Shown piece after piece: positions 6,979-22,407 of a stretch of DNA of 42,599 nt. Position numbers and translations under genes: made by a program. Source of the stretch: Desulfomonile tiedjei (GTDB taxonomy: Bacteria; Desulfobacterota; Desulfomonilia; Desulfomonilales; Desulfomonilaceae); contig DYLG01000002.1 of assembly GCA_020722215.1 (NCBI GenBank), positions 1-42,599 of the forward strand. Direction: 5' to 3'. The stretch's first letter is position 1, and each line of letters starts with the position of its first letter. The notes below the pieces were generated by a model. The model did no database searches, had not been told where the DNA came from, and saw only the letters and a program-made list of their open reading frames with translations.

Positions 6979-8850
6979 ATGGAGAGATCCACCGATGAAG
7001 CTGCCAGGGGGCTTCTGCGCGCAGCAGAGCGGGAAGCTATCGGCACTGTCTGGGACCGTTTTCAGAAGCAGAGTCCTCAGTGTGCTTTCGGCGAACTGGG
7101 AGTCTGTTGCCGGAACTGTTTGCAAGGCCCGTGCCGCATCAGCCCGTTCGGCGACGGAGCCACTGCGGATACCATCGTTGCCCGCAACCTGGCACGATCC
7201 ATAGCAGCAGGTACAGCCGCTCACTCAGGCCACGCCAAACACCTGGTTCACACTCTGCTCAAATGGACCGAGGGCAAGGCGCCTGATTATCCAGTGAGGT
7301 ATGAAGCAAAGCTTCGAAGCCTGGCCGCGAGAGTAGGCATCGCCGCAGATGGGAAGACCGTGAAGGAACTGGCCAAGGAAGTGGCCGAACTCGCATTGGC
7401 TGACTTCTCCGCCCAAGAGACTCCGCTCACATGGGCCGCGACCAATGTTACCGACGTCCGCGTGCATAAGTACTTGGAGTTGGGAGTTGTTCCCACAGGA
7501 GTCGATGCCGAGATTTCCGAAATCATGCACCGAACCCACTACGGTGTAGACGCAGACCCCATCAATCTGCTCCTGGGCGGAGTCAAGTGCGCATTGGCCG
7601 ACTTCGCGAGCTGCCACATGGGAACGGATTTCGCGGATATCTTGTTCGGGACGCCCAAGCCTGTGGTTTCCAGGGCAAACCTCGGCGTGCTGAAGCCCGA
7701 TGCAGTCAACGTCGCTCTCCATGGCCACAATCCGGTGCTGTCGGACCTGATTGCCCAGACGGCCAAGGAGATGGACTACGAGGCAAAACAAGCCGGCGCG
7801 ACCGCAGGCCTGAATCTGGTGGGAATCTGCTGCACCGGGAGCGAAGTGCTCATGCGTCACGGCATCCCGTCGGCCACCCACTCGGTTTCTCAGGAGTTAG
7901 CATTACTCACCGGAGCCGTAGACGCGATGGTGGTGGACTACCAGTGCCTCATGCCCAGCCTCGGCAACCTGGCCGAGTGCTTTCATACAAAGCTGGTAAC
8001 CACTATGCCCATCGCGAAGATTCCGGGCGCCGTTCATGTTGAGTTCACCGAAAGTGCCGGTCGTGAGGCTGCGACTCAGATCATCCGGCTGGCAATCGAC
8101 GCATACAAGCGTCGCGATCCTAAGAAAGTCAGAATACCCGAACACGAGACAGCGGCCATCGCGGGATTCTCCACGGAAGCCATTATCGGGGCTCTCTCTG
8201 GTGAACAAGGACGATCCTCTCAAGCCCCTGATCGACAACATCGTAAACGGCAACATCCAGGGTGTGTGTCTGTTTGCCGGATGTAACAATGTACGAGTTC
8301 CACAGGACGCTAATTTCATCATTATGGCCAAGGGACTGGCCCGCCGGAACGTGCTGCTCCTGGCCACGGGTTGCGGCGCGGGCGCGTTTGCCAGACACGG
8401 CCTTCTGACTCCCCAGGCCACGCTCGAGTATACCGGAGAGGGCCTCAAGGCCGTTCTGACCGCTGTGGGCGAGGCTGCCGGTCTGGGCGGTCCGCTTCCT
8501 CTGGTGCTGCACATGGGCTCGTGCGTGGACAACTCCAGGGCCGCGGACGTGGCCGTTGCCGTGGCCAACAAGCTGGGAGTGGATCTGGACAAGTTGCCTG
8601 TTGTGGCCAGCGCTCCCGAAGCAACCCGGAAAAGGCCATTTCCATCGGAACCTGGGCTGTAGCTGCGGGCTTGCCCACACATGTGGGCGTTGTTCCACCG
8701 GTGCTTGGCAGTCCTATTGTGGCCAAGGCCCTCACCGAGGACATCAAAGGATTGTTGGGCGGCTACTTCATAGTGGATACGGATCCGGTCAGTTCAGCGG
8801 CCAAGTTGATGGAGGCCATCCACTCAAGAAGAAAAGGGCTGGGGCTATGA
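6979..8850 (+). pseudogene. cooS: Anaerobic carbon monoxide dehydrogenase catalytic subunit, twice frameshifted
   Basis: The combined reading gives a CooS of about 620 residues, the usual length. The intact enzyme oxidises CO to CO2 at a Ni-Fe-S cluster and passes electrons to CooF. The B/D-cluster cysteines (C35, C43, C44, C47, C52) and the C-cluster region (NVALHGHNP, CCTGSEVLMRHG, VDYQCLMP) are in the first frame. FAGCNN, ATGCGAGA and HMGSCVDNSR are in the second, and EKAISIGTWAVAAG is in the third. The frame changes at 8192-8199, where one CT unit of an apparent (CT)5 is missing, and at 8628-8629, where one G of an apparent GGG is missing. Without repair, translation stops at 8286, before several cluster ligands. 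The start ATG at 6979 follows AAAGGGGG; a TTG at 6973 is an alternative. Sequencing error is possible, but the damaged genes immediately downstream favour true decay. Confidence 0.85.
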
Positions 8851-9182
8851 AAGAGGTCTTTGTCCATCTCGACCGCTGTATGGCTTGCCGCAGTTGCCAG
8901 CTTGCCTGCGGTGTGGAGCATTCATCAAGCAAGAGCCTGTTCGGCGCCCTGAGCGAGACGCCTCGGCCTCGGCACCGTCTTTACATCGAGCGAGCCGATG
9001 CCCGCAACATCCCTCTCACCTGCCGCCATTGCGACCCTGCGCCTTGTCTTGACGCATGCATTGCCGGCGCAATCTATAGGGATCAGCGGGGCTCGGTCGT
9101 ACATCGCGAGGATCGCTGCGTCGGCTGTTGGACCTGCGTCATGGTCTGTCCGTATGGCGTGATGGGCCGCAAGCTGGAGGAG
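8847..9182 (+). pseudogene. cooF: CooF-like 4Fe-4S ferredoxin, 3' truncated
   Basis: The first 112 residues match CooF-type polyferredoxins, the electron carriers that take electrons from CooS. Cysteine sets are C11/C14/C17/C21, C59/C62/C67/C71 and C91/C94/C97/C101. The ATG overlaps the cooS stop codon as ATGA, the usual coupled arrangement. After GRKLEE the family homology ends abruptly. The expected final cysteine set and C-terminus (roughly 70 residues) are absent, and the frame runs through unrelated sequence to a stop at 9410. The next recognisable sequence, in another frame, is the end of a flavin oxidoreductase. This indicates a deletion with its junction near 9182. If translated, the product would be 187 residues, the last ~75 being nonsense. 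Confidence 0.8.
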
Positions 9183-9183
9183 A

Positions 9184-9471
9184 GGGTCCAGCGTCCCCAC
9201 CGTTGCGGTGGGCATCACGGAACCGCCGGATCACGACTCTTACGATGTTTACGCGGATCTCCGAGGCGACAACTACCGAAAGCTCATCATGAAAGACGGA
9301 CAACTTCTGGGGCTGCTCATGGTCGGGGATCTCGAAGGAGCAGGCCTTTACACCGCACTGATCAAGGCACGGACCAAATTGGATCAAACGTCGTTGAACA
9401 AAATCCTTGAGTCCCGCCCCAGCAAAGCGGTATGGTTGGACCGCGCGATCGGATCGCGACGCAGCGCGTAG
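9184..9471 (+). pseudogene. C-terminal fragment of the CooF-associated FAD/NAD oxidoreductase
   Basis: In the frame read through 9208, the sequence VPTVAVGITEPPDHDSYDVY, then YRKLIMKDGQLLGLLMVGD and GAGLYTALI, matches the C-terminal dimerisation region of the pyridine nucleotide-disulfide oxidoreductase family. Those enzymes are commonly encoded after cooS and cooF and are thought to pass CO-derived electrons to NAD(P). The FAD- and NAD-binding domains, about 300 residues, are missing. There is no start signal, so this piece is not expected to be made. Together with the cooF truncation it fixes one large deletion, of roughly 1.1-1.2 kb if the ancestral operon had the usual gene lengths (inference). 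Confidence 0.72.
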
Positions 9472-9496: not shown

Positions 9497-9808
9497 GTGG
9501 GCCAACTCAAGGAAGTTGAGGAATGGAATGAACTGATTAGAAGCAAACGAGAAGAGATTCTTCGTATTGCCCGAAAGCACGGGGCTGACGACATACGTCT
9601 GTTCGGATCTGTAGCTCGCGGTGAAGCTACCCCCTCCAGCGATGTGGACCTGCTGGTCGAGGTGCGGAGCGATCACTCTCCTTGGTTTCCGGCAGGACTG
9701 ATCGCCGATCTGGAAGAACTATTGGGTAAACGGGTGCATGTTGTTACTGTGAGGGCATTGCACCCATTTATCCGGGACCGAGTGCTGCAAGAATCGGTGC
9801 CGCTATGA
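9497..9808 (+). CDS. mntA: MntA-type nucleotidyltransferase (MNT antitoxin)
   Basis: This 103-residue protein has the minimal nucleotidyltransferase (DNA polymerase beta-like) signature GSVARGEATPSSDVDLLVEV, with the GS and D-x-D residues intact. In MntA/HepT modules this protein neutralises the HEPN toxin by adding AMP units to a tyrosine. The start is taken as GTG at 9497, with GAGG upstream. The frame is open further 5', but that part overlaps the oxidoreductase remnant and looks unlike the family. The stop overlaps the hepT start as ATGA. The pair sits 25 bases after the broken CO-dehydrogenase operon, which fits a mobile or accessory insertion near decayed sequence. Confidence 0.82.
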   Translation: MGQLKEVEEWNELIRSKREEILRIARKHGADDIRLFGSVARGEATPSSDVDLLVEVRSDHSPWFPAGLIADLEELLGKRVHVVTVRALHPFIRDRVLQESVPL

Positions 9809-10098
9809 AAGATGATCGGCTCTATCTGACTCATGTCGGAGATTGCATACACCACATCCTCGAATATACCGTTGACGGGAAGGATGTCTTCATCGCTGAT
9901 CGGAAGACCCAGGACGCCGTGCTGCGGAACCTGCACACACTTTCTGAGTCGATGCAACGGATATCCGAAGATCTCAAAATCAGATATCCTGCGGTGCAGT
10001 GGCGGGAAATCGCAGCTTTCCGTAATGTGATCGTGCACGACTATCTCGGGATCGATCTGGACCAAATTTGGGATATTATCGAGACCTGCCCGTCCTGA
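9805..10098 (+). CDS. hepT: HepT-type HEPN toxin (DUF86), C-terminal tail lost by frameshift
   Basis: This is a 97-residue DUF86/HEPN protein with the ribonuclease motif R73-x4-H78-x-Y80 (RNVIVHDY) intact. Family members act as toxins, and MntA modifies the motif tyrosine. The protein stops at IWDIIETCPS. In the +2 frame the sequence DLPVLKAQVCAILLELLDK continues to a stop at 10140-10142 and is exactly the kind of tail the family normally has. The break lies near 10083-10090 and would be explained by loss of 1 or 4 bases (for example from an ancestral E-N-D-L-P). Whether the shortened toxin is active is unknown. A sequencing error could also explain it. Confidence 0.8.
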   Translation: MKDDRLYLTHVGDCIHHILEYTVDGKDVFIADRKTQDAVLRNLHTLSESMQRISEDLKIRYPAVQWREIAAFRNVIVHDYLGIDLDQIWDIIETCPS

Positions 10099-10266
10099 AA
10101 GCGCAGGTTTGCGCGATCCTTTTGGAATTGCTCGATAAGTGACGGCTGCGTCACTTCTTACCGGTAAGCGTTCGGCTCGACGTCGCTGCCATGATGGGGG
10201 AGGACCCGCACTGGTTCTTTCGCTCACGCTTCACTGCAATCCCCGATAGTTGCCGTATCAGGATCG

Positions 10267-11560: not shown

Positions 11561-14227
11561 ATGAGAAAGATGTTTCAGACCAGCCGCGTCATCTTCCCGG
11601 CTTGTCTGTTGGCTATGGTTCTTTGCACGCCGGCCGCGTCTATCGCGGCATCCGCCGGGCTGACCCGATTCACTCTTCCCAACGGACTGGAGGTGATAAT
11701 CCAGGAAGATCACGCCAGAAAGGCGGCGGCCATTCAGTTCTGGGTCATGGTGGGCAGTACTGATGAAGTGGACGGCGAGCGGGGAATAAGCCACCTCATC
11801 GAGCACATGGCGTTCAAAGGCACGCAACGCCGCGGAGTAGGTAAGATTGCTGAGGAGGTGGCCGCGTTGGGCGGATCCACCAATGCTTACACCAGTTGGG
11901 ATAGAACCGTATTCCACTTGACCGTTCCTTCCGACGCGGTTCTTCAAGGGTTGGATATTCTTGCCGACGCGGTTCTCAATCCGGCCATAGACCCGGATGA
12001 ATTGAAAAAGGAAAAACAAGTTGTCCTGGAAGAAATACTCGAACAGGAAGACCGCCCTTCCAGCAAGGCGTGGGAGCTTCTTTTCAAGACAGCGTACACC
12101 AGGAGCCCCTACAGATATCCCATAATCGGGTTCAAAGACCAGGTGGAACGCCTCACAAGAGACGACATCTTGGCCTTCCGAAAGAAATGGTATCTCCCCC
12201 AGAACATGTTTCTTCTCATTGTGGGCGATGTTGATCCAGTCAAACTCCGGCCCGAAATTGAACGCATGACCGCCGGTCTGAAGCCTTCCGTTTTCATTCG
12301 CCCGGAGAAACCGACCGAGCCGGTTCAGCAATCAGTTAGAAGCGCCCTCATCAGAGACCCCAAAGCCAAGGAGACCCGATTGCTGATGGCTTTTCACATA
12401 CCCTCCGCCAAGGGAGCGGACATCAACGCCCTTGACATAACCGCAAGCATTCTCGGCAGACGGAAGAGTTCGAGGCTTGTGCGTGTTCTCCAAAAGGAGA
12501 AACGGCTCGTCAACTCCATCGAAACGAATGCCTTGACCCGCAGGGATCTGGGCTTGTTCCTCATTGTGGCCACACTCAAGGGAAAAAACCTTGAAGCCGC
12601 CACCAAGGAGATTATGGAAGAACTCAATCGCCTGAGGAAGGAACCTCCGACAGCGGACGAACTGCAGCGGGCCAAGATCGACATTGAATCCGATTTCGTC
12701 TACGGCAGGGAGACAGTCGAAGGAACCGCGCGCAGCGTTGGGTATTTTCAGGCGGATTTCGGGGATGTTGCCCTGGAGGAGAACTACTTGCTGGCCAACA
12801 AGGCCGTCACCCAGGATCGCGTTTCCGAAGTCGCGACCAAGTACCTCGTGCCCTCCAATGCTACTGTAGCGGTGTTGCTCCCGGAGAAGGAAGCACCGGA
12901 TTTCGGCATCAACCGGCTCGCGGCAATTATCGAAAGCTACTCTCCTGTAGCAAGCAAGGCGGCGGCAAAGAAGGCTTCCGCGGAGACAACCAAGCGCGAG
13001 CTGCCAAACGGAATTCAGGTGGTTCTCAAGCCGGACCGCTCCAATCCGGTCATTTCCGTCAAGGTGGCCTGTCTTGGGGGCAAGCGTTTTGAGACCGTGC
13101 AGACACAAGGCATCATGAACTTCATTCGCAAAACGCTAGCCAAGGGAACCGGCACTCTGTCCGAAAAACAGATAAACAAAGCCATCGAGGACATGGGAGG
13201 AACCGTTTTCGGGTTCTCCGGGTACGACACTTTCGGGATTGACGCCCGATTCTTCAGTCGATACCTGGAAGACGGCTTGAAACTCCTGGCGGATATCTAT
13301 GCCAATCCATCCTTTCCCGAGGACGTCATTGAACGGGAACGTAAACTCATCATCAATGACATCGAATCGGATCCGGATCGCCCGATGCCTTTCGCGTTTA
13401 AGAAACTCGCCGAGGTGCTTTTCGTCAAGCATCCCTACGGCTTTGACCAAAAAGGCACGCCGGACACGGTTTCGCGTTTTACCGGAAAGGATCTCTCGGA
13501 AACGTACAAACGCTTTGCAGTGACATCCAACACCGTCATCACTCTGGTTGGAGACTTCGACCCGGACAAGGCGTTTGCAGTGATTGCCCGGCTGTTCGGA
13601 AAAATCCCCGCCGGTACGCTTGTCCCGCCGGAGGTCCCTAGGGAAGAGCCACTGACTGAGGTCCGAGAGAAAACCATAAAAATGCCCAGAGAGAAAGCCT
13701 ACATTCTCATCGGGTTTCGCGGGACTTCCATCAAGGACCAGGACCGCTACCCGCTGGTGGTGCTGAGCAACGTGCTCTCCGGCATGGGCGGGCGCCTGTT
13801 TCGAGAATTGCGCGATAAGGAATCATTGGCATATGCCGTGGCATCCATCTTCAGACCCCACGTTGATCCGGGGACCTTCCTTTTCTACATCGCGTGCGAT
13901 CCTTCCAAGGCGGATCGAGCGATGAAGGGGCTTCTCAGGGAGATCAATCGAATCAGAGAAACCGAAGTCACTCCGGACGAACTCAACCGCTCCACAAAGT
14001 CTGTTGTGGGCAACTACTGGATAGACTTGCAAAGTTCATCCGCACAAGCCGAGAGCATTGCCCTGAACACTCTCTACGGCCTGGGGCCTCACTATAATCC
14101 CGAGTACGTGGAGAAGATCTCGGCCGTCACCGCGCAACAAGTACTCAATGTGGCGCGCAAGTACCTGGACCCTAAGCGCTGTGCGATCTTGAAAATCATT
14201 CCTGAGGAGAAGTCCGAGGGGAAGTGA
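11561..14227 (+). CDS. M16 family zinc metallopeptidase (tandem pitrilysin-like domains), exported
   Basis: This 888-residue protein carries two pitrilysin/insulinase halves in tandem. An N-terminal signal peptide (about residues 1-30, ending near ASIAAS) indicates export to the periplasm. The first half has the inverted zinc motif H78-L-I-E-H82, with the third ligand Glu at about 157 in EKQVVLEEI. The second half, from about residue 483, has the M16 fold (ELPNGIQVVLKPD), but the zinc motif position reads GIMNFIRKTL, so it is non-catalytic. This is as expected for M16B-type active/inactive arrangements. The start ATG at 11561 has AGGAGG six bases before it; a longer upstream reading is not needed. 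Likely role is degradation of peptides in the envelope. Confidence 0.9.
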   Translation: MRKMFQTSRVIFPACLLAMVLCTPAASIAASAGLTRFTLPNGLEVIIQEDHARKAAAIQFWVMVGSTDEVDGERGISHLIEHMAFKGTQRRGVGKIAEEVAALGGSTNAYTSWDRTVFHLTVPSDAVLQGLDILADAVLNPAIDPDELKKEKQVVLEEILEQEDRPSSKAWELLFKTAYTRSPYRYPIIGFKDQVERLTRDDILAFRKKWYLPQNMFLLIVGDVDPVKLRPEIERMTAGLKPSVFIRPEKPTEPVQQSVRSALIRDPKAKETRLLMAFHIPSAKGADINALDITASILGRRKSSRLVRVLQKEKRLVNSIETNALTRRDLGLFLIVATLKGKNLEAATKEIMEELNRLRKEPPTADELQRAKIDIESDFVYGRETVEGTARSVGYFQADFGDVALEENYLLANKAVTQDRVSEVATKYLVPSNATVAVLLPEKEAPDFGINRLAAIIESYSPVASKAAAKKASAETTKRELPNGIQVVLKPDRSNPVISVKVACLGGKRFETVQTQGIMNFIRKTLAKGTGTLSEKQINKAIEDMGGTVFGFSGYDTFGIDARFFSRYLEDGLKLLADIYANPSFPEDVIERERKLIINDIESDPDRPMPFAFKKLAEVLFVKHPYGFDQKGTPDTVSRFTGKDLSETYKRFAVTSNTVITLVGDFDPDKAFAVIARLFGKIPAGTLVPPEVPREEPLTEVREKTIKMPREKAYILIGFRGTSIKDQDRYPLVVLSNVLSGMGGRLFRELRDKESLAYAVASIFRPHVDPGTFLFYIACDPSKADRAMKGLLREINRIRETEVTPDELNRSTKSVVGNYWIDLQSSSAQAESIALNTLYGLGPHYNPEYVEKISAVTAQQVLNVARKYLDPKRCAILKIIPEEKSEGK

Positions 14228-14245
14228 CGGAGGCAGTGGAATTCA

Positions 14246-14800
14246 TTACGGACTCTTGCCGGAGACCGCGGGGTACTCATTCAGGCGGGCAAAGCCGAAC
14301 AGCGTGGCGAGGACATTCTGAGGAAATGCGTGTAGGAGTCGATTATATGCTCGCACGTTGGCGTTGTACGACTTTCTGATGCCGTTGATGCGACAAGTCA
14401 TGGGAACCACAAAGCGCCATTGACCCGCAAAAGGCGGGTAATCTAGCATCTGGGGTCTCGCTTGAACAAGCTTCTCCACTTCTCTGAGACAACTGTCGAT
14501 GTCGTCGGCAGCCGCCACGATCTCTGACGGGTCACTGGATCGGTCTGATACCGCCCGCGCCTCGAGCACCTTCTCGGCAAGTTGAGCGTGGCCCGTTTCA
14601 AATCTTCTTATCGACTCGGTCAGTCCTGAGAGCAGTCGATTTCGTGCTCTGACCTCGCGAACAAACGCCTCCCATTCGGATCCGGCCTCAGATCGAAACT
14701 CCTGGAGGTCGGATCTCAGGCTGAGAAACGAGATCACCACAACCACCACGAACGCTGCCAGGAAGGTTACCGACAGCTCAATCATCCTGGGAACAACCAT
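14246..14800 (-). CDS. Divergent LemA family membrane protein
   Basis: This 184-residue protein has one N-terminal membrane helix (about residues 10-27) followed by a long helical domain. The C-terminal stretch RINGIRKSYNANVRAYNRLL followed by HAFPQNVLATLFGF matches the LemA signature, in which an R-x2-YN-x2-V-x2-YN pattern is followed by FP and a hydrophobic segment. The N-terminal part of the domain is more diverged than usual. The role of LemA proteins is poorly defined, and they are often paired with TPM-domain or peptidase genes. Here the neighbour is a convergent M16 peptidase, 18 bases away. ATG at 14785 (MIELSV) is an alternative start. Confidence 0.7.
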   Translation of the reverse strand: MVVPRMIELSVTFLAAFVVVVVISFLSLRSDLQEFRSEAGSEWEAFVREVRARNRLLSGLTESIRRFETGHAQLAEKVLEARAVSDRSSDPSEIVAAADDIDSCLREVEKLVQARPQMLDYPPFAGQWRFVVPMTCRINGIRKSYNANVRAYNRLLHAFPQNVLATLFGFARLNEYPAVSGKSP

Positions 14801-15036
14801 TCTTGCGATTCCGACTCGTCGCCATGTTGGCGTCTAGGCTCCGGACTTGAATCCGTTGTGTTGTGGGGGGCCTGGGTGTCAGTTCACCCGCCCGGCTTTT
14901 CCAGGCTACCGGTTTGAAATGAATTAGGCTTGTATCATCAATTGGCTATCTCATATAATTCATGCTTATTCTTAGATATATAGACCTAGTACCCAAATGT
15001 GTCAAATCATTTTTCCTGCCGCCCCCGCAGACCACA
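14801..15036. other. AT-rich upstream region without a gene
   Basis: This region separates a LemA-like gene and the DUF362 gene, which are transcribed away from each other. It contains a small 5-bp hairpin (14874-14878 with 14885-14889) and an AT-rich tract (about 14925-14990) directly upstream of the promoter at 15037. The tract could bend DNA or bind a regulator. No coding sequence or RNA was recognised. Confidence 0.4.
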
Positions 15037-15064
15037 TTGACTTTTCTCCGTGAGAACTTACAAT
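15037..15064 (+). promoter_or_regulatory. Sigma-70-type promoter for the DUF362/polyferredoxin operon
   Basis: TTGACT (15037-15042) and TACAAT (15059-15064) are separated by 16 bases. Each matches the consensus at five of six positions. The predicted start of transcription is near 15071, about 35 bases before the ATG at 15105. Confidence 0.55.
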
Positions 15065-15104
15065 ACGCCGTATGGACAATTCCCAGGAGAAAGGAGAGGT
15101 TCCT

Positions 15105-16043
15105 ATGTCCTTCAATCCGAATCGCCGCGAGTTCCTCAAGACTGGTCTTGCCACGACGGCAGTGATGATGACGGGAGGAGCGGCAGGTTTGGTCGGTGGC
15201 GTGGAAGCGGCCACGGCAGGTTTTCCGGACATAGTGGTAAGTCGTGGTCAATCGCCGGCGGCTCTCGCTCGCGCGGCCGTGGATGCGCTGGGGGGCATGA
15301 AACGTTTTGTCAAACCCGGGAACAAAGTAGTGATCAAGCCGAATATGAGCTTCGCCAGGGAAGTGGGGTCCGGCTGCAATACCAATCCCGACGTTGTTGC
15401 GGAAGTGGCTCGGATGTGCGTCGAGGCCGGCGCCTCGAAAATTTCGGTTCTCGATAACGTGCTGCAGAATGCAAATGACTGCATGCGAATGTCGCAGATA
15501 CCCGCGCGTTGTGAAGGTATTCCCAAGACTACGGTGCGCGTGGTCAGCGCCAAGAGGATGTTCCGCGAGGCCGCGGTACCGAATGGACAGAAAGTCAAGC
15601 GGATGGACGTTATTTCGGAAGCTCTCGAAGCGGATGTGCTCATTGCGGTTCCTGTGGGCAAGCATCACAGCGAGGCGGGAGTAAGTCTTTCCATGAAAGG
15701 AATGATGGGGCTCATTTACGACCGAGGATCCTTTCACTCCCGTTACAGTCTCCACGAGGCCATATGCGATATGGTCACCGTGCTCAAACCTCATCTGGTG
15801 GTTGTGGACGGAACGAAAATCCTGACTACGAAAGGGCCTGGCGGAGGGGGTAAGGTTCTACCGCTGAATCTGGTGATTGCATCTCAGGACATGGTTGCGG
15901 CGGACAGCCAAATGGTGGCCCTGGGAACGTGGTACGACCGGAAACTCCAGCCCAGCCAGGTGCCTCACATCCGTATTGCCGGACAGCGAGGTCTCGGGCG
16001 CATGGATACGGACAAGCTCAATATAAGAAACATTCAAGTCTGA
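15105..16043 (+). CDS. Tat-exported DUF362 family protein
   Basis: This 312-residue protein starts with a twin-arginine signal (NRREFLKTG at residues 6-14, then a hydrophobic stretch with TTAVMMTGGAAG). It should therefore be exported folded, probably with a cofactor. The mature part matches DUF362 (COG2006), with VVIKPNMSF, the CNTNP segment and VGKHHSEAGVSLSMKGMMGL. DUF362 proteins are often fused or adjacent to 4Fe-4S ferredoxins; their reaction is not established. The start ATG at 15105 has GGAGAGG upstream and a good promoter before it. Its TGA stop overlaps the ATG of the polyferredoxin gene by one base, which points to a two-protein unit. Confidence 0.85.
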   Translation: MSFNPNRREFLKTGLATTAVMMTGGAAGLVGGVEAATAGFPDIVVSRGQSPAALARAAVDALGGMKRFVKPGNKVVIKPNMSFAREVGSGCNTNPDVVAEVARMCVEAGASKISVLDNVLQNANDCMRMSQIPARCEGIPKTTVRVVSAKRMFREAAVPNGQKVKRMDVISEALEADVLIAVPVGKHHSEAGVSLSMKGMMGLIYDRGSFHSRYSLHEAICDMVTVLKPHLVVVDGTKILTTKGPGGGGKVLPLNLVIASQDMVAADSQMVALGTWYDRKLQPSQVPHIRIAGQRGLGRMDTDKLNIRNIQV

Positions 16044-17734
16044 TGCGTCTCCAGCGATTAACCCAGGCTGCTACCCTTCTGTTGTTTCTTTTTCTTTTGA
16101 CATTTGCGGCCCATCCGCTCGAGGAAGGAGTGCCGTTTGATCTTCTGCTGAGGCTGGATCCCCTGATCTGTCTGGGAACACTCGTGACTTGCCGGGAGGC
16201 GCTGTGGTTCTTGCTTCCCGGCTTGATAGTCCTCAGTTCCGCTCTGGTTCTCGGGAGATGGTTTTGCGGACACGTTTGTCCCATGGGTACCACGCTTGAC
16301 ATGGCCGAGGTTCCAATCCGGTCCGGACTCAGACTCTCAGCCAAGGACGCACCCTATGATGGGGGCAACTCAGGTCGGTCGTGGAAGTACCTGGGACTTG
16401 CGGCAATACTTGGAGCGGCTCTAGGTGGGATCTCGCTTGTGCATCTGGGATCTCCGCTTTCTTTGGTTACCCGTTTGTACGGAATCGTGGTGTATCCCAT
16501 CGTGAACCTGGTGGGGGACGGGGCATTGGCATGGCTGGGTCCGTGGCTGAGCCGCCTTGGGTTTCACGGTCCGGCCGGCATGACCATTCCCCAGCGCGTC
16601 TTTGCTGCCAACTTCTTTGTCGCGGTCTTGTTCGTTTGCCTGGCGATGCTCGCGTACAAACAACCCCGCTTCTGGTGCAGGAATCTTTGCCCGGCAGGAG
16701 CGCTTTTTGCCCTTTGTTCCAGGTCTCCCCTGATCCGGCGGAACGTCTCCGAATCCTGTACCCGGTGCGGCAGGTGCGTGCGAGCTTGTCCGACTGGAGC
16801 CATTGGCAGCGACCCGACGTCCACGGCCCACTCGGAGTGCATTGTGTGCCTCCGTTGCGTGGAAATCTGCCCTGAATCTGCGATTTCCTTTGATACCGGC
16901 CCGCGGGGAGAGGCTGTCTCCCTTCCCGCCCCGGATCCCACCAGAAGGGGAATTCTTGCAGCGGTTGCTGCGGGGTTGACAACCGCGGGGTTGCTGCGGA
17001 CCGGCATCAGACAGCCCAGAGCCTGGACAAAGGAACGCGCCTTCACGGATCCCGAACTCATTCGTCCTCCCGGCGCCCTGCCTGAACCCCAGTTTCTGGA
17101 AAGATGCGTTCGTTGCGGTGAATGCATGAAGGCTTGTCCGACTAACACTCTCCAGCCCGTATGGCTGAAAGCCGGGCTGGAGGGCCTGTTCACCCCCGTC
17201 ATAACGCCACGGTTGGCAGCGTGCGCGGTGCATTGCAACGTCTGCGGGAAAGTATGCCCCACCGGCGCCATCCGGGATTTGCCTCTCGTGGAGAAGCAGC
17301 ACGCGAAGGTGGGCACCGCATGGATTATTCGGCAGAACTGCCTTGTCTGGGAGCAGGACAAGCGATGCCTCGTTTGCGACGAGGTATGCCCTTACAAAGC
17401 GATTTCCTTCCAGAAGGTCCCTGATCGGGTCAGCGCCGTTCCTTTCGTGATTGAGAATCGGTGCCTCGGGTGCGGCTGGTGCGAAACCAGATGCCCTGTT
17501 GCCGGGGCGTCGGCCATACGGGTGAACATAATCGGAGAACTGAGGCTCGTCTCAGGATCTTACAGGGCTAAGGCTGAAGAGTATGGGCTGGTCTTTCAAG
17601 AAAAAGAGCCCACGCCGCGTGTTCCGACTCCGGACGCGTTGCGCCTGCCTGAACCGTCGCCTCGGACCACGCCCGACACCGAAACGCCGGAACCAGGCAC
17701 CGAAGGCCTGCCGCCCGGATTCATCAGCAAATAG
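16043..17734 (+). CDS. NapH/NapG-type fusion: membrane polyferredoxin with six predicted 4Fe-4S sites
   Basis: This 563-residue protein looks like two redox proteins joined. Residues 1-300 resemble NapH: several membrane helices, CGHVCPMG and CRNLCPAGAL loops, then two ferredoxin motifs, CTRCGRCVRACP and CIVCLRCVEICP. A short hydrophobic segment preceded by TRRG (about residue 310) follows. The second half resembles NapG/MauM, with CVRCGECMKACP, CNVCGKVCP, CLVCDEVCP and CLGCGWCETRCP. The last ~45 residues are a Pro/Thr-rich tail. It probably moves electrons between the quinone pool and a periplasmic partner. The partner is likely the coupled DUF362 protein, because the start ATG (16043-16045) overlaps that gene's stop. 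No nitrate reductase gene is nearby, so a role in nitrate reduction is not supported. Confidence 0.82.
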   Translation: MRLQRLTQAATLLLFLFLLTFAAHPLEEGVPFDLLLRLDPLICLGTLVTCREALWFLLPGLIVLSSALVLGRWFCGHVCPMGTTLDMAEVPIRSGLRLSAKDAPYDGGNSGRSWKYLGLAAILGAALGGISLVHLGSPLSLVTRLYGIVVYPIVNLVGDGALAWLGPWLSRLGFHGPAGMTIPQRVFAANFFVAVLFVCLAMLAYKQPRFWCRNLCPAGALFALCSRSPLIRRNVSESCTRCGRCVRACPTGAIGSDPTSTAHSECIVCLRCVEICPESAISFDTGPRGEAVSLPAPDPTRRGILAAVAAGLTTAGLLRTGIRQPRAWTKERAFTDPELIRPPGALPEPQFLERCVRCGECMKACPTNTLQPVWLKAGLEGLFTPVITPRLAACAVHCNVCGKVCPTGAIRDLPLVEKQHAKVGTAWIIRQNCLVWEQDKRCLVCDEVCPYKAISFQKVPDRVSAVPFVIENRCLGCGWCETRCPVAGASAIRVNIIGELRLVSGSYRAKAEEYGLVFQEKEPTPRVPTPDALRLPEPSPRTTPDTETPEPGTEGLPPGFISK

Positions 17735-17737
17735 GCT

Positions 17738-17766
17738 CTGGCATTATCGGTTAATTCTGCTATAAT
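17738..17766 (+). promoter_or_regulatory. Sigma-70-type promoter for the kinase gene
   Basis: CTGGCA (17738-17743) and a perfect TATAAT (17761-17766) are separated by 17 bases. The predicted leader is about 85 bases and contains a small hairpin (17803-17807 with 17817-17821). The site starts a few bases after the polyferredoxin stop codon, so the kinase gene can be expressed independently. Confidence 0.55.
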
Positions 17767-17858
17767 ATGCACTTACGATGAACCGGAGTGTTGCGGGGAC
17801 TACCTCATGCAATAGTTGAGGCCGTCCGGAAACAGCGGAGGTCGGAGTTGCAGACATC

Positions 17859-19778
17859 ATGAGTGATCCATGGACTTCCGGAGACGAGATCACCCGCCTG
17901 TGGCGTCAACTTGAGCTGTATGAAGAGCAAGGCCTGTTTTCCCATGCCATGGAAATCTGCAAGAATATCCTCTCCAAAGAGCCGTCACATGAAAGAGCCC
18001 GGTCAAAAATGGATGAGCTTCAGATGGCCAAATTGGAGGACAGCAGCACAGTTGTGGTGGGTTCACCCGACGACGTCCTTTCTCCCAGGCTGGCCATGGA
18101 TCTGGGCCTGGCATACATGGGCATGAACCTGTACGACAGGGCTCTGGAAGAATTCAAAAGGGCTCTTAAGGCATCGCCCCTGGTTCGTTCCCGAGTCTTG
18201 CCGCACATCGCCACCTGTCTTGTCCGCTTGAAACAGTACCAGGACGGACGAGAGACGTTTGCCAGGGTGTTGACGGAATCGGGACTTAGCATGCCCGAAA
18301 AAGGGGTAATCGTCGGCGATGCTCTGAACATGTACGACGAGCTGGATTTGGCGGACGAAGCTCTTCACCTCCTTACTCGTATCCCTGATGACCAAAGGAA
18401 GTACGTTCCCAACTTCGACGGGTTTTTCGAGCGATTCTCCCGGGATGCGGAGGACCAGGAAGATCTCGAAGTCTATGTGGAAGATGACGACACCGGAAAA
18501 GTGTACATGACGCCCAAGCCGGCGACTGGGGCATCCGGCGACTTTCCTGCCGGTGCTCGGCAAGCCTTGGTCCGAAAGGCAAATGACAGCGTGGAAGTGG
18601 TCCCTGTGGAACCTCCGACTCCGATGGCCAATGGGGCCCCTGGCCCGGCGGCTGCACGCGGAGCACCGGCTGACACCGCGGTGCCCGTAGTGCCGGTAGA
18701 AGCCCCGCCCGATGCTGCAGACGCAGACACGGCAAGAACCGTACGCTTCGCTTGCATTTGCGGCAAGGTCCACGTCGTACCCAGAACTTCAGTGGGCGCG
18801 ATCGGCCAATGCTCCGAATGCGGTCGGCAAACTGAGGTCCCGAAAGTGGACACTCGGAGAGATCGCCTCACCCTTCAGGTAATCGGCAAGGTGGTGGGAG
18901 GATGCCGCATTCTCCACAAAATCGGCGGCGGCGGTATGGGAGGAGTGTACAAGGGCCATCATATCGGCCTGGACAAACCTGTGGCGGTAAAGATCCTCCA
19001 CGGCTACCTCGCCGAAAAGGATCCCGTGTTCATCAAGCGGTTTATCAGAGAGGCCCGAGCAACCGCCAAGCTGGAACACCCCAACGTTGTAGGCGTGATG
19101 AACGTGGGGTACGAGAACGGGCTGCACTATCTTGTCATGCCGTACGTGGGAGGCGGAAGCGCTCAGACTTTGCTCGACGCACGCGGACGGCTTACTGCAG
19201 ACGAGGTTCTGGACATTGCCATACAGATAGCCAGAGCCCTGGAAGTGGCCCAAGAGAACAACATCATGCACCGGGACATCAAACCGGCCAACATCCTGTT
19301 CACCAATAAAGGAGAGGCCAAGTTGGCCGATTTGGGGCTTGCCAAGAGCTACCTGGACTCCGGAGATGCAGCAATAACCCAGACGGGGATTGCATGCGGA
19401 ACGCCTCTCTATTTCTCGCCGGAGCAGGCCAAGGGCTCACCGGATCTGGATATTCGATCGGACATCTATTCCCTGGGCATCACCATGTACCACCTGCTTG
19501 AGGGGGAGCCGCCCTTCAGTGCCGAGTCTGCGTACGTAATCTTCCAAAAGCACGTCCACGACGAACTCCCGCCATTCCGGAAAGCCACCCCCCCCGTTCC
19601 CGAGCATGTGGAAAAAATTGTGCGCAAGATGACGGAAAAGGATCCGAGCGACAGATTCGCCAGTGCCAAGGAACTGCGTCAGGCGCTGGAACAGGCCAAG
19701 GAACCCTCTGAGAGAAAACCCGACACCCCTCAGAAAAAGAGCTTTCTGGAACGGCTGGGCCTGACCAAGGGCTCATGA
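17859..19778 (+). CDS. Hanks-type Ser/Thr protein kinase with N-terminal repeat region and zinc-ribbon-like insert
   Basis: This is a 639-residue cytoplasmic kinase. Residues ~10-215 are helical and TPR-like, for example SPRLAMDLGLAYMGMNLYDR followed by ALEEFKRALKASP. A Pro/Ala-rich linker follows (~240-290). At ~298-325 there is a C-x-C-x18-C-x2-C motif (CICGKVH to CSECGRQ) that looks like a zinc ribbon. The kinase domain (~345-610) has the glycine loop GGGGMGGVYKG, AVKIL, the catalytic HRD at 471-473, a DLG magnesium motif at 491-493 and the SPE activation-segment motif. All catalytic residues are present. No membrane segment is seen, unlike many PknB-type kinases. Substrates are unknown. 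The repeat region suggests recruitment of partner proteins (inference). Confidence 0.88.
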   Translation: MSDPWTSGDEITRLWRQLELYEEQGLFSHAMEICKNILSKEPSHERARSKMDELQMAKLEDSSTVVVGSPDDVLSPRLAMDLGLAYMGMNLYDRALEEFKRALKASPLVRSRVLPHIATCLVRLKQYQDGRETFARVLTESGLSMPEKGVIVGDALNMYDELDLADEALHLLTRIPDDQRKYVPNFDGFFERFSRDAEDQEDLEVYVEDDDTGKVYMTPKPATGASGDFPAGARQALVRKANDSVEVVPVEPPTPMANGAPGPAAARGAPADTAVPVVPVEAPPDAADADTARTVRFACICGKVHVVPRTSVGAIGQCSECGRQTEVPKVDTRRDRLTLQVIGKVVGGCRILHKIGGGGMGGVYKGHHIGLDKPVAVKILHGYLAEKDPVFIKRFIREARATAKLEHPNVVGVMNVGYENGLHYLVMPYVGGGSAQTLLDARGRLTADEVLDIAIQIARALEVAQENNIMHRDIKPANILFTNKGEAKLADLGLAKSYLDSGDAAITQTGIACGTPLYFSPEQAKGSPDLDIRSDIYSLGITMYHLLEGEPPFSAESAYVIFQKHVHDELPPFRKATPPVPEHVEKIVRKMTEKDPSDRFASAKELRQALEQAKEPSERKPDTPQKKSFLERLGLTKGS

Positions 19779-19836
19779 CCAAGTCTCAATCCGTCCGAAA
19801 TACCGGGAAATAGGACTGCGGGAAGAGCCCCCTATC

Positions 19837-21399
19837 TCACTCCTTCAGCACTTCATCGGCATCAGGGAGTTCCACCCGATTTCGGCCCCTGCTTTTTGCC
19901 AAGTACAGAGCTGTGTCCGCTTCTCTGACAAGGGCGTACGCGTCAGGCTCTGAGAAGTCCTCTACGCTGGTCACTCCGAAGCTCACCGTGAGGTTGAATT
20001 CCCCTTCGTCGGTACGCAGAGGGCTGGAGGCAAAGTCCTCACGGAGTCTTTCGGCAAGCTGCAGCGAACGCCTCTTGTCGCAGCCTGGCAGGACGAGAAG
20101 GAACTCGTCACCGCCATAACGTCCCACCTCATCGTAGGGCCGGACGGACGCCACGAGTCGCCTGGCCGATTCCTGCAGCACGGCGTCGCCTGCCAAATGC
20201 CCGTACTGATCGTTTATTTCCTTGAAGCGGTCAAGGTCCGCCATGACCACTCCCACCGGCGTCCTTTCTCGCATTGACCTGGACAACTCGCTTCCGAGGC
20301 GGTCAGAGATCGCTCTGCGGTTCCATAGACCGGTGAGACCGTCATGAGTAGCCTGGTAGCGAAGCGCTCTATTGGCCGCTGCCAGATCTTTCGTCAGTTT
20401 GTTTTTCTCCCGCTCTGCATTGTGACGCGCGGTGACATTGCGGACGGACAGCACGGTCAGGGGTCTGTCTTTCCGGGAGAAGAACGCTGCAGTGATCTCC
20501 ACGGCAAAGACTGTTCCGTCTTTAGTCCTGTGATATCTAACCGGAATCCGTCCCGTGGAAGCGTCTCCTGCCTTTCCCTCGGTTAGCTGCTCTGCCGAGA
20601 GATCCGAGCGCGACAACCCAAGCAACTCTTCCCGTGAATATCCGTAAAGCTCGCACGCTGCGGTGTTGACATCCAGAATCTGCCCCGTCTCGCGATCCAT
20701 TATCAAAAGAGCGTGACTGGACGCCTCGAACAGGCCCCTGTATCTCTCCTCACTTTCGCGCAGCGCTGCTTCGGCCTTGTTGCGCTCCTCGATTTCGAGT
20801 TTGAGCTTCTCATTGGCTTCGACAAGATCCGATGTGCGCTCCCCGACACGCCTTTCCAGCTCTTCCCTGTTCCGACGGGTTGACAGCAATTCGTCTCTTT
20901 CGTGGGTCAGGTCTTCCACCAGGATCAGGATATGCCTTTCTTGCCCGAGTCTTAGAGACCTGAAATGCATTCGTCCCCACATGGTTCCTTCTCTCTTCGT
21001 GATCGCACTCTCCACCGCTGAGGGTTTTCTCTGAGAGAAGACCCCGTCCAAGACCGAACGGATCTTGCCGCCCGCTTCTTCGGCCGGGAACAGAAGGGCC
21101 ACCGGCCGACCCTCGAGGCCGTTTCCTATGGCTCCCAGGCTTTCGGAGGCCCGGTTGGCAAACCTGATGAGGAACGAGCGGTCCACAAGTAACGCCGGAA
21201 TGGGCAAAGCGTTCAGGAGCTTTCCCACGGATGTGGCACTCAGTCCCGGCATGGCGAAGCTGCCCGACTGCGTGAGGAACTCTTCAGGGTAGTCGTTGAT
21301 CTCGATGCTGTCGGTGGTCTTGGGCCCACTTCCTGCCTGTGGCTCTCCTACGACAACCTTTTCACACTTTTCGTCGCCACAATACTCGATTTCACTCAT
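19837..21399 (-). CDS. PAS-PAS-GGDEF diguanylate cyclase
   Basis: This 520-residue sensor protein has two PAS-type domains (about 58-165 and 220-330) joined by a coiled coil (170-220, ELERRVGERTSDLVEANEKL), then a GGDEF domain from ~350. The active motif is intact (RYGGDEF, 428-434 region). The inhibitory site RPYD lies five residues upstream, so product inhibition by cyclic di-GMP is expected. No membrane helix is seen, suggesting a cytoplasmic signal such as redox state or a ligand. The ATG at 21399 is preferred over a TTG 36 bases upstream because a GGGA sequence precedes it. It is convergent with the kinase gene, 58 bases away. Confidence 0.88.
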   Translation of the reverse strand: MSEIEYCGDEKCEKVVVGEPQAGSGPKTTDSIEINDYPEEFLTQSGSFAMPGLSATSVGKLLNALPIPALLVDRSFLIRFANRASESLGAIGNGLEGRPVALLFPAEEAGGKIRSVLDGVFSQRKPSAVESAITKREGTMWGRMHFRSLRLGQERHILILVEDLTHERDELLSTRRNREELERRVGERTSDLVEANEKLKLEIEERNKAEAALRESEERYRGLFEASSHALLIMDRETGQILDVNTAACELYGYSREELLGLSRSDLSAEQLTEGKAGDASTGRIPVRYHRTKDGTVFAVEITAAFFSRKDRPLTVLSVRNVTARHNAEREKNKLTKDLAAANRALRYQATHDGLTGLWNRRAISDRLGSELSRSMRERTPVGVVMADLDRFKEINDQYGHLAGDAVLQESARRLVASVRPYDEVGRYGGDEFLLVLPGCDKRRSLQLAERLREDFASSPLRTDEGEFNLTVSFGVTSVEDFSEPDAYALVREADTALYLAKSRGRNRVELPDADEVLKE

Positions 21400-21741
21400 T
21401 GGAGCGTCCCTTCCGAGGTCGCCTCCCGGAGACAAGAGAAGGCTTGGATGAAACTCGCCGGACAGGTCGAACCCTGGAGCAACTCAGATCTCATCGCTTG
21501 CCCGTTCCGGGACTAGCGACGATCAACGTTCTCCCATGCGCTTTCCGTAGATGCGGAGAATGGTGTGAGCCCGATTCACTTCCCTGACGGGCGCTTTGCC
21601 GGCCAGAGGCCCGTTTCGTAACTCGTTCCGCTCATTCTCGCGAAAGGAGCACCAAGAGTCAACAATTGCGCATGCCAGAGTCCCTGGCCGCGCATCGACC
21701 GCCCTGCTGTGGAGCGTCTCGGCGGCTGCCGGCGGGCGTTG
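21400..21741. other. Gap without a recognised gene
   Basis: This 342-base stretch lies between the diguanylate cyclase start and the end of the DUF192 gene, both on the minus strand. It must hold the promoter of the cyclase gene, but no site stood out. Short open frames here lack start signals and homology. Confidence 0.4.
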
Positions 21742-22236
21742 TCAGTCCGCTGCTCCGAAATCGACGCGTTGTCCCATCCTTATGCCGTACTTGTCGCAAG
21801 AGCCCGACTTGATTTCCAGGCAGTAACGGCTTGGATACATCGAGGGATAGATGAGCCCCGAATTCGGCTGAATGCCCTGATAGATCAGTCTTATCAGGCC
21901 GTCCTTGTCGATCCAGAGAGCGTCTATGGGGAACTTCATTCCCTGCATGTGGATCGCATAATTGCCCTCGAACACGAAATCCAACAGCATACCCGTGTCC
22001 TCATCGATGCGATCCCATCCGAGCAGCCCTTGTTTCCTGGCGGCCTCGGTGTCTGCCACAACCGACCTTATTGTCTTAGACCCCAACGTCACCGCAATAG
22101 TTTTCGGCCTGGCCGATTGCACCCGCTTCCCTTCTTTGGACAGGTCCTCAGCCGACACCCATTGCGCCGCCGCCAGCAGGCAAACCGCGGAAAGGACGAT
22201 CTGCGTCATAACGCCGAACCTTGTGCCTATCAACAT
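21742..22236 (-). CDS. Exported DUF192 family protein
   Basis: This 164-residue protein has an N-terminal hydrophobic signal sequence (about residues 9-28, ending near WVSA) followed by a DUF192 domain. Typical pieces are VVADTEAARKQGLLGWDRI, MLLDFVFEGNYAIHMQGM, FPIDALWIDKDG and the closing YCLEIKSGSCDKYGIRMGQR. DUF192 proteins are small beta-rich proteins of unknown biochemical role, often exported. The ATG at 22236 has GGGAG eight bases before it. Earlier in-frame ATGs extend upstream without ribosome binding sites. It is divergent from the helicase gene, with a 257-base intergenic region. Confidence 0.8.
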   Translation of the reverse strand: MLIGTRFGVMTQIVLSAVCLLAAAQWVSAEDLSKEGKRVQSARPKTIAVTLGSKTIRSVVADTEAARKQGLLGWDRIDEDTGMLLDFVFEGNYAIHMQGMKFPIDALWIDKDGLIRLIYQGIQPNSGLIYPSMYPSRYCLEIKSGSCDKYGIRMGQRVDFGAAD

Positions 22237-22407
22237 TGTCTCTGCTCCCATGATCATGAAATCCACGGCCGGCGGCGCGACCGCAACCACGGCGCCGGCC
22301 TGCATCGAGCCTGCCGGACCGAACAACACATCCAGGTCCAGTATATATCATGCGGTTCATCATTGAGGCTAGGAGCCTGGGCACCGTGTGGAAACCCGAC
22401 CATACGG

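Follow-up and report, generated by a model that had tools for sequence, protein, structure and literature searches.

A probable recent cooS-cooF-FNOR pseudo-operon in a draft genome of Desulfomonile tiedjei

The contig DYLG01000002.1 of Desulfomonile tiedjei (assembly GCA_020722215.1; positions 1 to 42,599 of the forward strand, the whole of which we call the window) carries the remains of a carbon monoxide dehydrogenase (CODH) operon made up of cooS, cooF and a gene for a FAD-NAD(P) oxidoreductase (FNOR), and in all probability this operon became a pseudo-operon recently, by several independent deletions. Comparison of the assembled sequence with intact homologues shows that the lesions exist there, that the pieces as assembled cannot encode a complete CODH, and that FNOR is essentially gone. 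Set against intact orthologues, the genes carry several disabling lesions that are independent of one another, as is expected of a bacterial pseudogene. Operons of the CooS-CooF-FNOR type have been proposed to pass electrons from CO to CooF, from CooF to FNOR and on to NAD(P) (PMC4703632).

The window is one contig of a draft metagenome-assembled genome (MAG; 3.74 Mb, 289 contigs, 82% complete). We measured the cooS lesions against 75 aligned homologues and against the closest intact orthologue, L036, which comes from the D. tiedjei isolate NC_groundwater_1666 (the locus also listed as L007, genome G007); all lesions were read from the assembled sequence. The features of the operon are as follows.

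6979..8193, + strand: cooS remnant, piece 1, the N-terminal two thirds of the Ni-CODH catalytic subunit (TIGR01702 positions 2-413, E 1.6e-126)
7160..7161, + strand: site of a 21-nt in-frame deletion of seven codons, including that of the fourth B-cluster Cys, Cys70 of CODH-II (DNA alignment to L036)
8192..8199, + strand: (CT)4 tract, the first cooS frame break, net -2 against homologues
8192..8659, + strand: cooS remnant, piece 2, homologous from 8192 to about 8626 (TIGR01702 positions 419-547, E 1.6e-48)
8622..8629, + strand: second cooS frame break, net -1, with GG at 8628-8629
8629..8847, + strand: cooS remnant, piece 3, the C-terminus, whose stop overlaps the start of cooF (TIGR01702 positions 549-620, E 2.5e-23)
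8847..9191, + strand: cooF remnant, residues 1 to about 113 of about 164, with the last cysteine motif lost (Fer4_11; DNA alignment)
9187..9192, + strand: junction of a deletion of about 1.18 kb, at which cooF runs into the 3′ end of FNOR in a different frame
9187..9471, + strand: FNOR 3′ remnant, the last ~94 codons, with the FAD and NAD domains missing (Rubredoxin_C)

A preliminary description of this DNA had read cooS across three frames, and this is borne out by both profile families: the three pieces align one after another to the 621-position TIGR01702 model and likewise to successive, non-overlapping parts of PF03063, and they abut end to end on the single open reading frame (ORF) of 631 amino acids in L036, with amino-acid identities of 74.5%, 85.8% and 86.3% for pieces 1, 2 and 3. 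Piece 3 returns to the frame of piece 1, and piece 2 lies in another. No piece alone reaches the family cut-off of 478 bits (423, 165 and 82, compared to 738 for L036), and the window has no continuous CooS frame of ~620-640 codons scoring above it. A codon-based hidden Markov model given no homology input independently marked the breaks at 8198 and 8622. The first shift had been attributed to the CT repeat at 8192-8199, where the comparison with homologues indeed places a net change of -2. The second had been explained as one G lost from a GGG; a net change of -1 is present at about 8622-8629, but most homologues have Thr or Ser at that codon, so that no homopolymer slip is required. Both breaks lie inside the interval 8192-8630 to which the damage had been assigned, but it reaches from about 7160 as far as 10095. 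The homologous pieces contain no nonsense codons, and neither L036 nor any of the aligned homologues shares the breaks. Elsewhere among the 80 homologous loci that we fetched, cooS is also in two frames, at other positions, in a deltaproteobacterial MAG (L101, 4464-6351) and in Candidatus Electrothrix aarhusensis (L070, 8001-9901), both of them drafts.

The preliminary description also held that every Ni-Fe-S ligand region was preserved, which does not stand. All 75 aligned homologues, among them all 59 of the close group, keep the Cys that lies within the seven deleted codons, and only the window lacks it; in alignments to CODH-II chains from the PDB the gap spans the residue counted as Cys70, which in CODH-II is the fourth of the cysteines that bind the B-cluster [4Fe-4S]. 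Only three of the four B-cluster cysteines are therefore left. The other ligand columns, with roles assigned from what is established for CODH-II, are still coded: the D-cluster cysteines at residues 35 and 43 of the composite protein, and the six C-cluster ligands (one His and five Cys) at residues 250, 284, 323, 436, 466 and 516. Gly-Ala codons flank the corresponding L036 segment on each side, so the 21 nt may well have been lost by slippage between short direct repeats.

The larger deletion cuts through the genes of the proposed electron-transfer partners. Relative to L036 about 1.18 kb is absent; with it went the final cysteine motif at the end of cooF and FNOR residues 1 to ~324, with the FAD and NAD domains. 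The cooF remnant, whose start at 8847 overlaps the cooS stop, matches Fer4_11 only to position 64 of 100, compared to 99 of 100 for L036. When the L036 FNOR was used as a query against the genome of the window, 9187-9468 matched residues 325-418 of 426 with 52% identity, and the codon model again marked a frame break at 9192 with no homology input. An FNOR match is present in 54 of the 80 fetched loci, and about 35 of these have it immediately behind cooF, so the complete cooS-cooF-FNOR arrangement is the common one. It is seen with the same gene order and tight spacing in Geobacter sulfurreducens GSU2098-2095 (PMC4703632), and also in L036, L038 and L050. The window differs from these operons in having a three-frame cooS without one B-cluster ligand, a shortened cooF, and an FNOR of which only the last ~94 codons are left; complete consecutive genes are lacking and the order survives in remnants only.

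The (CT)4 tract lies exactly at the first break, and it had been proposed that cooS might be toggled by slippage there, as in phase variation. A somewhat similar case is that of Geobacter bemidjiensis, in which homopolymer-frameshift polymorphisms likewise fall at short repeats, some of them in only part of the population (PMC2996986); the window is unlike it in that the tract is (CT)4 and is accompanied by irreversible deletions. A long hypermutable repeat that would be unusual for this genome is not found at the site, the tract being one of 36 dinucleotide runs of comparable length in a 281-kb sample of the MAG (34 of four units and two of five), with five (CT/AG)4 sites in the window itself. 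Moreover, the second break, the missing Cys codon and the lost FNOR would keep the operon dead whatever the state of the tract, and as the deletions of 21 nt and ~1.2 kb cannot slip back, phase variation is refuted in effect and we give it almost no weight. Hardly more credible is programmed recoding, in which two ribosomal frame changes would yield a full-length CooS. There is a precedent in acsA of Clostridium autoethanogenum, which resembles cooS here in being a CODH gene that the genome sequence shows as interrupted, but differs in that it has a single in-frame TGA with low-level, low-efficiency read-through and an essential role (PMC4895105), where the window has frame changes and lost segments. 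The two shifts are of different sign, no relative has the same breaks, and the product would still have neither the B-cluster Cys nor its electron partners.

The damage continues into a toxin-antitoxin pair of type VII, MntA-HepT (9500-10142), that adjoins the broken operon directly downstream.

9500..9808, + strand: MntA-type nucleotidyltransferase antitoxin gene, no break seen (NTP_transf_2, E 3.2e-14; NF047752, E 3.8e-12)
9805..10098, + strand: HepT-type HEPN toxin gene, net -1 near its 3′ end (HepT-like, E 7.7e-23)

The homologous tail of HepT runs on in another frame to 10142, and three HepT relatives read through the break point uninterrupted. The RNVIVHDY motif is kept despite the net -1, and related MntA-HepT pairs occur in three of the genomes compared (G008, G004 and G012).

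Counting the HepT break, five lesions lie within ~3 kb and every one is a deletion. For a background we used the same codon model, fitted to long ORFs of the 281-kb sample, and followed the reading frame with a Viterbi tracker, again with no homology input; most of the frame changes tracked were ordinary gene overlaps or close junctions and were removed, and those left over were read through and compared with Pfam. After this filtering no other gene-internal break was found by the scan in the remaining ~39 kb of the 42.6-kb window, and about three candidates were left in the other ~239 kb of the sample, or roughly 1 per 80-90 kb. These are seen on two other contigs. At 13529 and 16249 of L120 (contig C25) apparent breaks fall in the receiver domain of a response regulator and in a B12-binding radical SAM protein, the latter with its Radical_SAM domain divided between two frames, and at 4930-6118 of L125 (contig C100) two adjoining ORFs with no Pfam match read like a split transposase. 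At the background rate, 0.03 small frame-changing indels would be expected in 3.2 kb, compared to three seen (two in cooS, one in HepT; nominal P 7e-6). The locus was chosen for being broken, and allowing for the ~90 such stretches in the sample brings P nearer to 6e-4; the tracker also overlooks some breaks, including that in HepT, which makes the background rate a lower bound.

This clustering bears on whether the locus might be intact in the cell, with bases lost from the draft by faulty assembly or base calling. The preliminary description had allowed for a base-calling error, and for the small indels only this is possible: it could cover the two slips in cooS taken alone, but not the whole set of deletions, since losses of 21 nt and ~1.2 kb are unlike base-calling faults. 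The flanking genes on the same contig are intact, and the position of the L036 counterpart of the 21-nt segment between short Gly-Ala-coding repeats fits a real slippage deletion. Some observations do weigh against a recently decayed operon. The genome is a draft with apparent frame breaks elsewhere at the rate given above, the two further frame-broken cooS loci (2 of 80) are drafts as well, and the substitutions show no excess. When changes present in only one of the pair, the window or L036, were scored with each of two outgroups, lineage-specific amino-acid changes in the window were not raised (42 compared to 43 in L036, and 41 compared to 43), and there is little sign in the sequence that the window cooS passed through a long neutral period. 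Synonymous lineage-specific changes, again window compared to L036, number 69 and 75 with one outgroup and 73 and 63 with the other. On balance we regard an error affecting the locus as a whole as unlikely.

If the operon did decay, substitution rates that are not raised imply that it did so recently, in line with what had been supposed beforehand and with the lack of nonsense codons. CooS would then have been under normal constraint until shortly before its loss, though this is a weak test that by itself does not separate a recent loss from an error. At otherwise invariant CooS sites there is a mild excess of departures, four in the window (the lost Cys included) against a median of one. GC content at third codon positions is 0.64-0.72 compared to 0.64-0.67 in neighbouring genes, giving no strong sign of recent foreign origin. 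The same rates, together with the long open frame of about 437 amino acids, could be taken to mean that the 5′ piece of cooS encodes a shortened protein that still functions, in a new role. Recent breakage explains the rates equally well, the piece carries only half of the six C-cluster ligands and is short of one for the B-cluster, and no homologue examined has such a form, which makes this proposal wholly improbable.

On the reading that we favour, the operon itself lost 21 nt, 2 nt, 1 nt and ~1.2 kb, and HepT next to it one further nucleotide, through deletions that are real mutations in the cell and came mainly from replication slippage or deletion between short repeats. Its loss may have been tolerated because another CODH serves carbon metabolism. 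No intact second copy was found in the MAG, but contig C97 (L117; positions 14000-22240) carries an intact CODH of 624 amino acids beside a protein of 735 amino acids and further genes, which we read as presumed acetyl-CoA synthase (ACS) and Wood-Ljungdahl components. With such a CODH/ACS-like cluster intact, the FNOR-linked copy may be dispensable. No congener with the same locus was found in a set that included no second genome of the genus, and among 18 genomes of the family the cooS orthologue is present only in G007.

Frameshifted CODH genes have been reported previously in Carboxydothermus hydrogenoformans and Calderihabitans maritimus, where, as in the window, a Ni-CODH gene is inactivated by frameshift with other CODH genes present (PMC6085454). 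Those cases differ in that the Wood-Ljungdahl CODH was hit, in culture and at high CO; in the window the CODH/ACS copy is intact and it is the FNOR-linked copy that is broken, by several deletions. Together with the split gene of C. autoethanogenum they show that this kind of event is already known, and a recently dead operon is an instance of a well-known and ordinary kind. A less ordinary origin, in which the operon was lost in a single burst of deletion or under active selection against CODH activity of the kind reported for carboxydotrophs in laboratory culture, seems to us distinctly improbable; if true, the damage would mark a recent change of lifestyle in the lineage. For annotation the consequence is a correction: the copy in the window should not be counted as a capability for CO oxidation. 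The locus is also a caution, as a gene that appears to have suffered only two small slips may be surrounded by damage that is irreversible.
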